Assembly: GCA_003330885.1 (NCBI GenBank)
Contig: CP030277.1
Coordinates: 1,860,001 to 1,924,000, forward strand
Length of the DNA stretch: 64,000 nucleotides
Source of the DNA: Rhodobiaceae bacterium
GTDB lineage: Bacteria; Pseudomonadota; Alphaproteobacteria; Parvibaculales; Parvibaculaceae
Direction: 5' to 3'
The notes beneath the pieces were generated by a model, which saw nothing but the letters and a program-made list of their open reading frames with translations, had not been told where the DNA came from and searched no databases. Position numbers and translations under genes: made by a program. Below are positions 19,448-32,451 of the stretch, one piece after another (positions within the stretch are counted from its first letter, which is position 1; the number at the start of each line of letters is the position of its first letter).

Positions 19448-19705
19448 CTCATACCGCGCCATACACCTTTAATTCATGTGGCTAAGGTCCTATATTAGTC
19501 CTGTCGGGAAACCGACTATGGCGATAAACGGATTTCGTAATAAACCATTCGGACCCGGGGGCGGTACCCGGCGCCTCCACCAAAAGCCCAAGACCTGATG
19601 TCAGGAAGCCTGGGTTTTTCATGGGGGCGAAATAGGATCGACGAGGGTGTAAAGGATCTTCTTTTGCTCGGCATGGTTCCGCCGTTATCGGGCCGTTTGA
19701 TAGTT

Positions 19706-19744
19706 GCAAATGACAACTACGCTGAGGCACGTCTAGCTGCGTAA
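19706..19744 (+). other. tmRNA tag reading frame (ANDNYAEARLAA)
   Basis: GCA resume codon followed by codons for N D N Y A E A R L A A and a TAA stop. With the alanine charged on tmRNA the full tag is A-ANDNYAEARLAA. The LAA end is the ClpX-recognised degron, and the N-terminal AND-Y part is the region bound by the SspB adaptor in alphaproteobacteria; sspB lies at 22001. Confidence 0.95.
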
Positions 19745-19799
19745 GCGGTTCGACTGTTTCGAATCTAGTCCTGTAAGTTAGCGCTTGCAGGCGGGGTTC

Positions 19800-19832
19800 G
19801 GAGGCACCTGGCAACAGAAGCCTCCACTTTTT
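19800..19832 (+). terminator. Rho-independent terminator of ssrA
   Basis: GGAGGC (19800-19805) pairs with GCCTCC (19820-19825), followed by AC and a five-T run. It ends the tmRNA precursor 40 bases before the next coding sequence. Confidence 0.8.
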
Positions 19833-19872
19833 GTCCCGGGGAGGGCCACAGAGACACCCAACGGAGACATGA

Positions 19873-29250: not shown

Positions 29251-29279
29251 TTGACAGAATATGACTGACCAGTCAGTAT
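29251..29279 (+). promoter_or_regulatory. Promoter of the tetR gene
   Basis: A perfect -35 box TTGACA (29251-29256) followed after 17 bases by CAGTAT (29274-29279), which keeps the key A and final T of a -10 box. It lies 23 bases upstream of the TetR start and encloses the palindromic operator. Confidence 0.6.
29264..29277. promoter_or_regulatory. Palindromic operator of the TetR regulator
   Basis: ACTGAC-CA-GTCAGT, two perfect 6-base half sites. The position between -35 and -10 would block RNA polymerase, so negative autoregulation by the adjacent TetR protein is the natural reading. Similar ACTGAC/GTCAGT dyads are frequent as TetR/AcrR-type operators. Confidence 0.7.
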
Positions 29280-29301: not shown

Positions 29302-29937
29302 ATGGATCTCAAACTTGTCGAAACGTCATCTGAACCCAAAACCATCAAGCGGAACAATGAGCGGCCCAAACAGATATTAAGTGCCGCAGTCGAGCTTTTT
29401 CGGGACCGAGGGTTTGAGGCAACCCGCCTTGAGGACGTGGCCGACAAGGCAGGCGTCTCCAAGGCCACGATCTATCTCTATTTTGAGAGCAAAGAAGACC
29501 TGTTTTTCGCCCTAATTCGGGAAAAAGTAGTTCCCATGCTCGAGCAAACGATCGCCCAGGCAGAAGCATTTGAAGGACCGGCATCTGAGTTCCTGCGCCT
29601 CAAGGCCCAAAGCGTCGGACGCCTGTTTGCACATTCCGAACAGGGAGCCATTCTGAAACTCGTGATATCAGAAGCCCGCCGATTCCCTGACCTGACCGAC
29701 TATTATCGGACGGAAGTCCCGGAGCGCGGCCTGGAAAACATTGCCAAAATGGTCCGCCGGGGTATCGATGAAGGGGAATTTCGTGAATGCGATGAAAGGG
29801 CTGCCGCGACTGCCTTCATGTTTCCATTGTTAATGAACGGGATATGGATGAATTCCGTGGGCCCCGATGAGATCGTCGACCCCGATGCAGCGATTAACTT
29901 CCATTGCGAGAATTTCATTCGAGGGTTGAGCATCTAG
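29302..29937 (+). CDS. TetR/AcrR-family transcriptional regulator
   Basis: 211 residues. N-terminal HTH: ILSAAVELFRDRGFEATRLEDVADKAGVSKATIYLYFESKEDLFFALI (helix 3 at about SKATIYLYF, 51-59). The C-terminal ligand domain matches the TetR_C group with FPDLTDYYRTEV, seen in regulators that act on efflux or xenobiotic genes. GGAG lies seven bases before the ATG. Neighbours are a CoA-transferase upstream and a haloalkane dehalogenase downstream in the same direction. Ligand unknown. Confidence 0.93.
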   Translation: MDLKLVETSSEPKTIKRNNERPKQILSAAVELFRDRGFEATRLEDVADKAGVSKATIYLYFESKEDLFFALIREKVVPMLEQTIAQAEAFEGPASEFLRLKAQSVGRLFAHSEQGAILKLVISEARRFPDLTDYYRTEVPERGLENIAKMVRRGIDEGEFRECDERAAATAFMFPLLMNGIWMNSVGPDEIVDPDAAINFHCENFIRGLSI

Positions 29938-29972: not shown

Positions 29973-30001
29973 TTGACCCCTCTCTCCCTCCCTGCTCTGA
30001 T
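29973..30001 (+). promoter_or_regulatory. Candidate promoter of the dehalogenase gene
   Basis: TTGACC (29973-29978) and TCTGAT (29996-30001) with 17-base spacing. Transcription would start near 30008, just before the palindrome at 30011. The -10 box is only a four-of-six match. Confidence 0.45.
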
Positions 30002-30010
30002 CCCTCAGAA

Positions 30011-30027
30011 GGTTGCAATTTGCAACC
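30011..30027. promoter_or_regulatory. 17-base palindrome at the dehalogenase promoter
   Basis: GGTTGCAA-T-TTGCAACC: perfect 8-base arms around one central base. It would lie at about +3 to +20 of the predicted transcript, a classic roadblock position for a repressor, 29 bases before the start codon. The sequence is unrelated to the ACTGAC dyad upstream of tetR, so either the TetR protein has two site types or a different regulator acts here. Confidence 0.6.
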
Positions 30028-30056
30028 CGAACTAGAAAAAATTGGGGGGATGACGC

Positions 30057-31046
30057 ATGGCACTGGATTTTAAACTCACGCGCCGAGGTATTCTAACAGC
30101 AGGTGCCGCAGCCGGTGCCGCCACCGCACTCCCAGCTCACGCGAATGAAAAGCCGATCAGCGCGGAGCCCCTCGCATCAAAACGCGCCAAAGCCCTGGAT
30201 CTTGAAATGTCCTATGTCGAGATTGGGGAGGGCGATCCCATCATCTTCCTCCACGGCAATCCAACATCGTCCTACCTGTGGCACAACATCATGCCCTATG
30301 CAGCACCCTTTGGCCGCTGCATCGCGCCAGATCTCATTGGCATGGGTGGATCCGACAAGCGTCCCTTGGTTGAAGGTGAAGACCCGGACGCCCGCTACGG
30401 ATTCTTTGAACATCAGAAATATCTGGATGCTCTTTTGGAAAACCTTGGGGTGACGGAAAACGTCACTCTGGTCATCCACGATTGGGGATCAGCGCTTGGT
30501 TTCGACTGGGCCCGTCGCAACGAGGACAAGGTCAAAGGCATTTGCTTCATGGAAGGCTTCACAAGGCCTTTCTCCTATTCAGAGATGGATTGGTTTCCAT
30601 GGGTGATGTTCAAGTCATTCAAATCGGGCCTAGGTGATTGGATGGTGCTGGAACAAAACATGTTTGTAGACCAGGTTCTGCCAGCATCGGTGCTGCGAGA
30701 GCTGAGCGAAGAAGAAATGGGTCACTACCGAGCTCCTTACTTGAATGCCGGTGAAGACAGGCGCCCCACCCTTACCTGGCCCCGCGAAGTGCCTTTTGAC
30801 GGAGAGCCGGAGGATACGCATGCCATGGTCGTACAATTGTCAGAATGGTTACAGACCAACGACCTGCCCAAGCTCTTTGTAAATGCCGAGCCAGGTGCAT
30901 TGATCCAGGGCGAGGTGCGCGACTTCGTGCGGACCTGGAAGAACCAGGAAGAGATCACCGTGCGCGGCATCCATTTCATTCAAGAGGACAGCCCCCACGA
31001 GATCGGAGCAGCACTCGAAAAATGGATCCCGAAGGTGCAGGCCTAG
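30057..31046 (+). CDS. Tat-exported haloalkane dehalogenase (HLD-II type)
   Basis: Alpha/beta hydrolase that cleaves carbon-halogen bonds. All five functional residues of subfamily II are visible: nucleophile D142 with halide-binding W143 (IHDWGS), second halide ligand N68 (LHGNPTSS), catalytic acid E166 (CFMEGF) and base H314 (EDSPHEIG). A twin-arginine signal (LTRRGILTAGAAAGAATALPAHA, residues 7-29) precedes the enzyme, so it should be exported folded to the periplasm, unusual among characterised members. GGGGGGA precedes the ATG. 329 residues. Substrate range unknown. Confidence 0.9.
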   Translation: MALDFKLTRRGILTAGAAAGAATALPAHANEKPISAEPLASKRAKALDLEMSYVEIGEGDPIIFLHGNPTSSYLWHNIMPYAAPFGRCIAPDLIGMGGSDKRPLVEGEDPDARYGFFEHQKYLDALLENLGVTENVTLVIHDWGSALGFDWARRNEDKVKGICFMEGFTRPFSYSEMDWFPWVMFKSFKSGLGDWMVLEQNMFVDQVLPASVLRELSEEEMGHYRAPYLNAGEDRRPTLTWPREVPFDGEPEDTHAMVVQLSEWLQTNDLPKLFVNAEPGALIQGEVRDFVRTWKNQEEITVRGIHFIQEDSPHEIGAALEKWIPKVQA

Positions 31047-31047
31047 A

Positions 31048-32451
31048 TCAGAGGGAAACGATCTTGCCAGGGTTGAGAATGTTCTGAGGGTCAAGCGCCC
31101 GTTTGATGGTCCGCATCATATTGACCCCCTGACCAATCTCTTCTTCAAGGAAGGCCATTTTCCCCAAGCCAATCCCGTGCTCACCAGTACAGGTCCCTTC
31201 CAGCGCCAAGGCACGACGCACCATGCGATCATGCAACCTCCGCGCTTCGGCCATATCGCGGCGGTTCTCGGGATCGATCAGCATGATCGTGTGAAAATTG
31301 CCGTCGCCCACATGGCCGACAATCGGCGCAGTAAGGAAGGAAGCGTCCAGATCTGCTTTGGTCTCCCGAAGGCACCGAGCAAGATTTGAAATTGGCACAC
31401 ACACATCTGTTGTCATGCCCTTTTTTCCTGGCTCCAGGGCCAGCGATGCGTAGTACGCATTATGACGCGCTTCCCAAAGCCGTGTCCGCTCTTCTGCATT
31501 GGTGGTCCAGGTGAAATCCCCGCCTTGATACTCGGACGCGATCGCCGCAAAACGTTCGGACTGCTCTTTGACGCTCGCATCAGTTCCATGAAACTCAAGA
31601 AACAACATCGGGCTCACTGGCAGATCCAAATTTGAGTAGGCGTTGCAGGCTGCAACCTGCACCTCATCCAACACCTCAATCCGCGCAACCGGCAAACCTG
31701 ATTGAATGGTTTCAATCACTGCGTCAATTGCCCCGTCGAGACTCTCAAATGGACAGACACCACCCGCTATTGCTTCGGGGATACCCTGCAGCCGGAGTGT
31801 AAGTTCGGTAATGATCCCCAGTGTCCCTTCCGAACCAACCAGCAAACGCGTGAGGTCATATCCTGCGGCCGATTTCCGGGCCCGCCCACCGGTGGTGACA
31901 ATCTCGCCAGTGGCGAGCACCGCTGTGACGCTCAACACACTGTCCCGCATGGTGCCATACCGTACGGCATTCGTGCCGGATGCCCGCGTCGCGGCCATAC
32001 CGCCGAGACTTGCATCCGCCCCAGGGTCAATAGGAAAAAAGAGGCCTGTGTCCCGCAAATAGGCGTTGAGCTGTTTGCGCGTCACGCCTGGCTGAACACG
32101 ACAGTCTAAGTCCGCCGCATGCACTTCAAGTACGTCATTCATTTGGGATAAGTCGATGGTGACACCACCTTGAACAGCGCTCACTTGTCCCTCAAGGGAC
32201 GTGCCAGTGCCAAACGCAATGACGGGCACTTGAGCAGCCGCACAAATCTTGACGATCTGCGCCACCTCCTCCGTTGATGCGGCAAACGCCACCGCATCCG
32301 GCGCATGGGTTTCATGCCAGCTTTCGTCATGCCCATGGGCATCTCGCACGGCGGCACCCAGCTGAAGACGGTCGCCCAGCAAATCCTGCAAATCAGAAAC
32401 CACACCGACAAGACGGTCTTGGTCAGCGTTTATTGTCGATGCCTCATCCAT
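31048..32451 (-). CDS. FAD-linked 2-hydroxyacid dehydrogenase/oxidase (GlcD/D-lactate dehydrogenase type)
   Basis: 467-residue flavoprotein of the VAO/PCMH fold. The FAD-binding domain has VIAFGTGTSLEGQV (about 97-110) and the GYDLTRLLVGSEGTLGIITELTL block; the C-terminal FAD-oxidase domain ends with GEHGIGLGKMAFLEEEIG. Relatives oxidise glycolate or D-lactate to the keto acid and pass electrons to cytochrome c or quinone. No GlcE or GlcF partners are nearby, which favours a D-lactate-type single-subunit enzyme. Convergent with the dehalogenase, with a one-base gap. Confidence 0.9.
   Translation of the reverse strand: MDEASTINADQDRLVGVVSDLQDLLGDRLQLGAAVRDAHGHDESWHETHAPDAVAFAASTEEVAQIVKICAAAQVPVIAFGTGTSLEGQVSAVQGGVTIDLSQMNDVLEVHAADLDCRVQPGVTRKQLNAYLRDTGLFFPIDPGADASLGGMAATRASGTNAVRYGTMRDSVLSVTAVLATGEIVTTGGRARKSAAGYDLTRLLVGSEGTLGIITELTLRLQGIPEAIAGGVCPFESLDGAIDAVIETIQSGLPVARIEVLDEVQVAACNAYSNLDLPVSPMLFLEFHGTDASVKEQSERFAAIASEYQGGDFTWTTNAEERTRLWEARHNAYYASLALEPGKKGMTTDVCVPISNLARCLRETKADLDASFLTAPIVGHVGDGNFHTIMLIDPENRRDMAEARRLHDRMVRRALALEGTCTGEHGIGLGKMAFLEEEIGQGVNMMRTIKRALDPQNILNPGKIVSL

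Follow-up and report, generated by a model that had tools for sequence, protein, structure and literature searches.

Extracytoplasmic dehalogenation and the HLD-II enzymes

The catalytic set of the HLD-II haloalkane dehalogenases (HLDs) consists of Asp, His and Glu, with Glu serving as the acid, plus halide-binding Asn and Trp. The site at which dehalogenation takes place determines the compartment into which halide, acid and reactive products are released, as well as the substrates that the enzyme encounters. Dehalogenation outside the cytoplasm is not without precedent. LinB of Sphingomonadaceae, whose catalytic pentad is numbered N38, W109, D108, E132 and H272 in a published table (PMC6100074), is periplasmic and unprocessed according to the title of its report (Nagata et al. 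1999), and a passage of PMC6299022 describes RdhA as a Tat-exported dehalogenase that acts outside the cytoplasm. RdhA is, however, a corrinoid/Fe-S enzyme that carries out a reductive reaction, it is unrelated to the enzyme considered here and it shares with it only the logic of location. In one open-access library, with papers judged mostly by titles and abstract openings and some by passages, no description of a Tat-exported HLD was found.

The window analysed in this study is a stretch of 64,000 nucleotides at positions 1,860,001-1,924,000 of the 3.86 Mb, one-contig genome of a Rhodobiaceae bacterium (GCA_003330885.1, contig CP030277.1). As judged from its sequence and from that of its relatives, it encodes a real, conserved and very probably Tat-exported HLD-II, which varies on an enzyme family already known. 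What is new at the sequence level is an apparently genuine signal that shows marks of selection, a probable single insertion whose position on the genus tree could be assigned, the pairing of a signal-bearing and a signal-less HLD in one genus, and signs of a recurrence of export across HLD-II.

The enzyme encoded at 30057-31046

The open reading frame at 30057-31046 on the + strand specifies a protein of 329 amino acids, in which the following features were recognized:

30057-31046, + strand: haloalkane dehalogenase, HLD-II, with a predicted Tat signal (open reading frame, family profile, LinB alignment, predicted fold)
30057-30143, + strand: putative twin-arginine signal peptide, residues 1-29, with RR at 9-10 and predicted cleavage between AHA and NE (motif, profiles, ortholog conservation, pLDDT)

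The NCBIfam equivalog NF002938 'haloalkane dehalogenase' scored 381.5 bits on this protein against a cut-off of 241. Alignment to LinB, for which the annotated sequence obtained in a plasmid search with P0001 was used (a plasmid search with L267 as query gained nothing further), places the pentad at N68 and W143 (halide), D142 (nucleophile), E166 and H306, and the view of the initial annotation that all HLD-II catalytic residues are present is borne out by this alignment. At every pentad position, between 204 and 206 of the 206 aligned HLD rows share one residue. Trees were built from 103, 55 and 79 hand-chosen rows, the 103-row set having taken all rows then labelled exported; the pentad is intact in 79/79 rows of the 79-row tree, exported rows among them, and the window HLD falls there in the same half as LinB, the two halves being separated with 100/100 support. 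Two relatives, L206 and L209 (from G067 and G196), are HLD-like sequences in which a Gly occupies the alignment column of the nucleophile Asp, which could indicate inactive relatives or an alignment slip.

The AlphaFold model of the window HLD was built from a 26-row alignment (A3), which retained 26 of the 35 rows first chosen after one row with a stop codon and eight more were dropped and the start of L065 was moved. Its mean pLDDT is 84.8, with residues 1-29 below 50, and the predicted structure shows an alpha/beta-hydrolase fold with a helical cap like that of LinB and DhaA. The model superposes on LinB with a Z of 44.1 and an rmsd of 1.3 over 293 residues at 52% identity. In a sequence search of solved structures, the best matches were AncLinB-DmbA (7pw1), 4c6h/4brz, Rv2579 (2qvb) and LinB. 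The first three share the HLD-II fold with the window HLD at 50-56% identity, but they align to it from residue 33 or later, leaving the signal unmatched. The fold is also shared with DhaA variants (Z 39.7, about 42% identity) and with DmmA (Z 40.3, 43% identity). LinB, at 52-53% identity, has in common with the window HLD the fold, the pentad and, if the title of its report is followed, a periplasmic location; however, the aligned LinB has no N-terminal extension and is by the same title unprocessed, whereas the window HLD carries a putative 29-residue Tat signal and, when aligned to LinB, a five-residue insertion at about 103-107.

Start codon and predicted twin-arginine signal

The predicted signal sequence of the window HLD is MALDFKLTRRGILTAGAAAGAATALPAHA, followed by NE, and is laid out with RR in the n-region, an Ala/Gly-rich h-region and AHA preceding residue 30. 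The reading frame opens with ATG 30057, an in-frame TGA (30051-30053) being found one codon 5' of it, and the next ATG, GTG or TTG is codon 51. The initial annotation had named the use of a start 3' of the RR pair as what would speak against its reading. Such a start was considered and rejected: ahead of the core, the frame offers no candidate other than M51, which falls within strand 49-56 of the AlphaFold model and would cut the fold.

LTRRG and the AxA are unchanged in 6/6 orthologs, and the second Arg codon varies among them (CGA, CGG, AGA or CGT). Pooled over the 15 pairs of the six orthologs, the signal yielded a dS of 1.46, a dN of 0.116 and an omega of 0.079, and the mature part a dS of 1.95, a dN of 0.047 and an omega of 0.024, both omega values being rough with dS near saturation. 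With silent sites near saturation, the retention of RR and AxA in these alignments exceeds chance, and the 'clear RR signal peptide' of the initial annotation is upheld by the layout of MALDFKLTRRGILTAGAAAGAATALPAHA, by this retention in all six orthologs and by the omega of the signal. As evidence against it, both Tat profiles locate a Tat signal at residues 6-29 but remain below their curated cut-offs, with 18.7 bits against 22.7 for PF10518 and 10.9 bits against 16.7 for TIGR01409. For the two orthologs tested with TIGR01409, L011 reached 13.9 bits and L013 gave no match; L267 and L272, Tat examples from the family f22, scored 13.1 and 13.9, likewise under 16.7.

The arrangement of the N-terminus, with RR in the n-region, a weakly hydrophobic h-region and an AxA, is that of a probable Tat signal. 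The best 12-residue hydropathy value of the window HLD h-region is 1.43, and the six orthologs range from 1.4 to 2.0, compared with 2.1-3.0 in 11 Sec, lipoprotein or anchored relatives, a contrast that is imperfect, given the 2.26 of the Tat lipoprotein L169. Additionally, the genome of the window encodes TatC, with a profile score above the cut-off, and tatA- and tatB-like ORFs, both named by eye, lie directly upstream of tatC in one cluster; the host possesses TatABC, TatA and TatB being apparent. Tat export of the window HLD is well supported by these sequence features, and the protein very probably crosses the inner membrane.

Distribution in the genus and probable insertion at the locus

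Among the 40 family genomes searched, the Tat-HLD gene is found in 6/7 genomes of its own genus and in 0/33 others. An HLD of any kind (E <=1e-50) was detected in 35/40, and a signal-less HLD was found in 7/7 genus members. The signal-less HLD of the window genome is 62% identical to the window HLD and stands after a different TetR-type gene; the signal-less copy of G005 groups apart from the other six genus copies in both the 103-row and the 55-row tree. Near the signal-less HLD of the window genome, a flavin amine oxidase-like ORF (L252, 8-1462, - strand; named by eye) was seen to carry an RR signal of its own.

A protein 98% identical to the window HLD is encoded by the congener Parvibaculaceae bacterium Mf 1.05b.01 (contig BAOK01000001), whose origin is given in a passage of PMC10915500 as a culture of Breviolum minutum, a Symbiodiniaceae dinoflagellate. 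This lends some support to the marine or algal-associated lifestyle that the initial annotation had suggested. A term search of the publication on Phaeomarinobacter ectocarpi (PMC4110880), which is associated with a brown alga, did not turn up the word 'dehalogenase'.

The gene is flanked in the window by two genes:

29302-29937, + strand: TetR-family regulator, a neighbour of older date that is also found in G006 and G008, where the HLD is missing (family profiles, synteny)
31048-32451, - strand: FAD-linked oxidase (GlcD-like), convergent, the other flank of the insertion (family profiles, synteny)

The gene order in the six carriers is AsmA-like, CoA transferase, TetR, HLD, FAD oxidase, thioesterase, pentapeptide protein and ClC channel. 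G006, which belongs to the same genus, has the identical order without the HLD, and G008, from another genus, keeps the order from the CoA transferase onward, also without it. In G006 and G008, about 31 and 5-11 bases separate the ends of the TetR and FAD oxidase matches, and in three further genomes of the family (G010, G014 and G015) the distance between the matches to these two genes measures 1.2-3.3 kb with no HLD match there. The G006 assembly is rated at 98% completeness and 9% contamination, and the locus lies in it as one contiguous stretch; therefore, the absence of the HLD there is not a gap. In a tree of six shared neighbour proteins, G006 branches ahead of the carriers (97/97), and the HLD orthologs branch in a manner consistent with this tree. 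The simplest account of this pattern would be a single insertion after the G006 split, followed by vertical descent, and an older gain with a loss in G006 could also produce it. The GC content of the window HLD gene is 0.551, against 0.556 for the window. The ClC channel and the GlcD-like oxidase were considered as functional partners and rejected as evidence, both being syntenic in genomes without the window HLD; for this reason, the ClC channel gene provides no evidence for the benefit that the initial annotation had suggested, in which export would spare the cytoplasm halide and reactive products. Elsewhere in the window, a tmRNA gene with the tag ANDNYAEARLAA is found at 19487-19835 on the + strand, marked tmRNA* by ARAGORN and probably two-piece and permuted.

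Control region

Four elements were recognized upstream of the HLD and TetR genes:

29973-30001, + strand: TTGACC-17 bp-TCTGAT, resembling a promoter (the two hexamers and their distance are identical in 6/6 orthologs)
30011-30027, no strand assigned: 17-bp palindrome GGTTGCAATTTGCAACC, candidate operator just 3' of the promoter-like element (shuffles, genome scan, orthologs)
30044-30049, + strand: G-rich run resembling a ribosome-binding site (GGGGG in 5/6 orthologs, GGGGAG in G005)
29264-29277, no strand assigned: palindrome ACTGACCAGTCAGT, at which the TetR gene is likely to have its own operator (conserved across the 8 genomes aligned, which belong to two genera and include G006 and G008)

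The promoter-like element was not flagged by a sigma-70 scan, and neither terminators nor standard sigma-70 promoters were found on the + strand between 29000 and 32500. A palindrome with arms of 8 and a loop of <=1 arose in 12/2000 shuffles of the TetR-HLD intergenic stretch. GGTTGCAATTTGCAACC has no other genome site at <=1 mismatch; at two mismatches, 11 other sites are present, compared with 3 for a reversed control, and two of the 11 lie inside the window, near 19703 and 31642, so that the idea of a strictly single-site operator was only partly borne out. In the orthologs, GGTTGCAATTTGCAACC is retained with change, most weakly in G005, and in G004 one arm pair is changed on both sides, with one new mismatch in addition.

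ACTGACCAGTCAGT, which differs in sequence from GGTTGCAATTTGCAACC, is likely the old operator of the TetR gene. A role of the neighbouring TetR as a dedicated regulator of the HLD was considered and found unsupported, since the TetR gene and its own operator predate the insertion and GGTTGCAATTTGCAACC differs. Because it has a conserved promoter-like element of its own and a palindrome distinct from that of the TetR gene, the window HLD seems to be under its own switch.

Proposed mechanism and alternative explanations

The best explanation, which we regard as quite likely, is that the window encodes an HLD-II hydrolase that is exported by TatABC, cleaved and periplasmic, and that arrived once in the genus as a single gene. 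The signal, the catalytic residues, their conservation and the occupied and empty sites are features of the DNA as read; from them, we infer Tat use, cleavage, location, activity and substrates. The enzyme would fold in the cytoplasm and then be exported by TatABC, and cleavage after AHA would leave the mature enzyme in the periplasm. D142 would attack the carbon carrying Cl, Br or I, with N68 and W143 holding the leaving halide, and H306/E166 would activate water, by which the alcohol would be freed. This hydrolytic scheme is the mechanism established for HLDs. The halide and the acid would then arise outside the inner membrane. The gene itself would have been inserted with its own control region between pre-existing TetR and FAD oxidase genes and would since have been inherited vertically beside a signal-less dehalogenase.

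Export through Sec instead of Tat, with the RR pair incidental, would fit the sub-cut-off scores of the Tat models and the fact that several HLD-II relatives bear Sec or lipoprotein signals; however, the RR is kept in 6/6 orthologs despite near-saturated silent change, the h-region is less hydrophobic and Ala/Gly-rich, and the TRRGxL of the window HLD fits the Tat motif, so that the Sec route appears improbable. The same low profile scores could also mean that the N-terminal extension does not function as a signal and that the enzyme is cytoplasmic, as the second HLD presumably is, but purifying selection acts on 29 residues that lie outside the fold, and the RR, the h-region and the AxA are all kept, which makes a non-functional extension very improbable. 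It is unlikely as well that the protein is an exported alpha/beta-hydrolase that mainly catalyses another hydrolysis, or has a signal-molecule role, instead of dehalogenating. Although the long stem branch before the six orthologs, at 0.68-0.86 changes per site, and the five-residue insertion together with a changed cap region could permit a shift of substrate, all five HLD-II catalytic residues are retained, the mature part is under strong selection and the equivalog score lies well above its cut-off.

As to the origin of this probably periplasmic enzyme, duplication of the signal-less HLD of the genus followed by signal capture, and not transfer from outside, is possible but rather doubtful. 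It is compatible with constrained trees, since grouping the Tat clade with the seven signal-less HLDs of the genus was not rejected (p-AU 0.922), nor was grouping with six of the seven (p-AU 0.29). In contrast, the 79-row tree places the Tat clade in a 12-row set without the signal-less copies of the genus (99/96), a placement that is unsafe, given the long branches and an unsettled bootstrap. The 55-row tree and the same set without L169 placed the Tat clade differently, and the quick 103-row tree missed a tree 43.9 log units better. The empty site of G006, a genome with a signal-less copy elsewhere, is compatible with either transfer or duplication.

Apparent recurrence of export across HLD-II

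Export signals were screened in 216 HLD ORFs (205 unique cores), by eye and with a crude hydropathy screen, so that the counts are approximate; 17/36 flagged rows were judged non-signal by eye, including L213, in which the RR lies far upstream of the likely start. Besides the six Tat orthologs, the HLDs judged to be exported are L169, a Tat lipoprotein, together with eight of the Sec or lipoprotein kind (L195, L201-L204, L210-L212) and three HLDs with a membrane anchor (L196, L197, L199). In the 80 nearest named loci, which are the best 80 of 581 relatives, no flagged sequence was seen apart from the congener L058. The notion of the window HLD as a unique Tat-HLD was rejected, wider sampling having found further Tat HLD-II enzymes. 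In the family f22, with 296 genomes sampled, the Tat-bearing query L267 gave 28 matches in 25 genomes, with 8 clear Tat signals and 4 Sec-like ones; the N-termini of L275 and L278 were not judgeable, and L301 is without HLD motifs. The f22 Tat enzymes (L267/L274, L272/L283, L276, L277, L279-L282) resemble the window HLD in carrying the pentad behind a Tat-like signal, but they belong to the other main HLD-II clade, separated by the 100/100 split from the LinB side of the window HLD, and would most simply represent a separate acquisition. The interleaving of f22 HLDs with named Roseobacteraceae in the 79-row tree hints at what f22 may be. In the family f90, a Tat signal with a lipobox occurs in 2/5 genomes (L169/L305, L306), and these are probably Tat-exported lipoprotein dehalogenases. 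They share with the window HLD an RR signal on an HLD-II, at 53% and 51% identity, but differ from it by the lipobox Cys and are probably membrane-anchored; L169 falls on the LinB side, as the window HLD does, and its kinship with the window lineage is unsure.

In the 79-row tree, one HLD-II clade has 23/28 rows labelled exported, a clade that is enriched by row choice, with 15/28 rows from the search with a Tat-bearing query and with L278 labelled exported despite its unjudgeable N-terminus. On the LinB side (51 rows), the exported rows are the window's six, L169 and L195 only. In the 103-row tree, based on searches with the window protein, the corresponding clade has 10/14 rows labelled exported. 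The minimum number of changes in export state is 4 on the 79-row tree and 3 on the quick 103-row tree, a sign that export has recurred across HLD-II. The statement of the initial annotation that most characterised dehalogenases are cytoplasmic consequently needs a caveat, with LinB reported as periplasmic in a title and several sampled HLD-II enzymes carrying export signals.

It is tentatively suggested, as a plausible reading that we would not yet favour outright, that HLDs have left the cytoplasm several times, by Tat, Tat-lipoprotein, Sec, lipoprotein or membrane-anchor routes, and that the genus is two-compartment, its periplasmic HLD having its own switch and serving perhaps for algal halocarbons. 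If so, each carrier would hold a cytoplasmic HLD beside a periplasmic one that was acquired as a lone gene, and the periplasmic enzyme could remove chlorine, bromine or iodine from small molecules, perhaps detoxifying or using halocarbons of algae ahead of their uptake. HLDs that naturally possess real signal peptides would offer an ecological clue, in the form of halocarbon exchange around algae, as well as ready-made periplasmic dehalogenases. Two further observations concern individual relatives. L196, L197 and L199 (from G270, G160 and G259) have a conserved N-terminal anchor (MGF..KW.FR...) and are probably membrane-tethered dehalogenases, and the genome of L053 (G065) gave four HLD matches, including a tandem pair.
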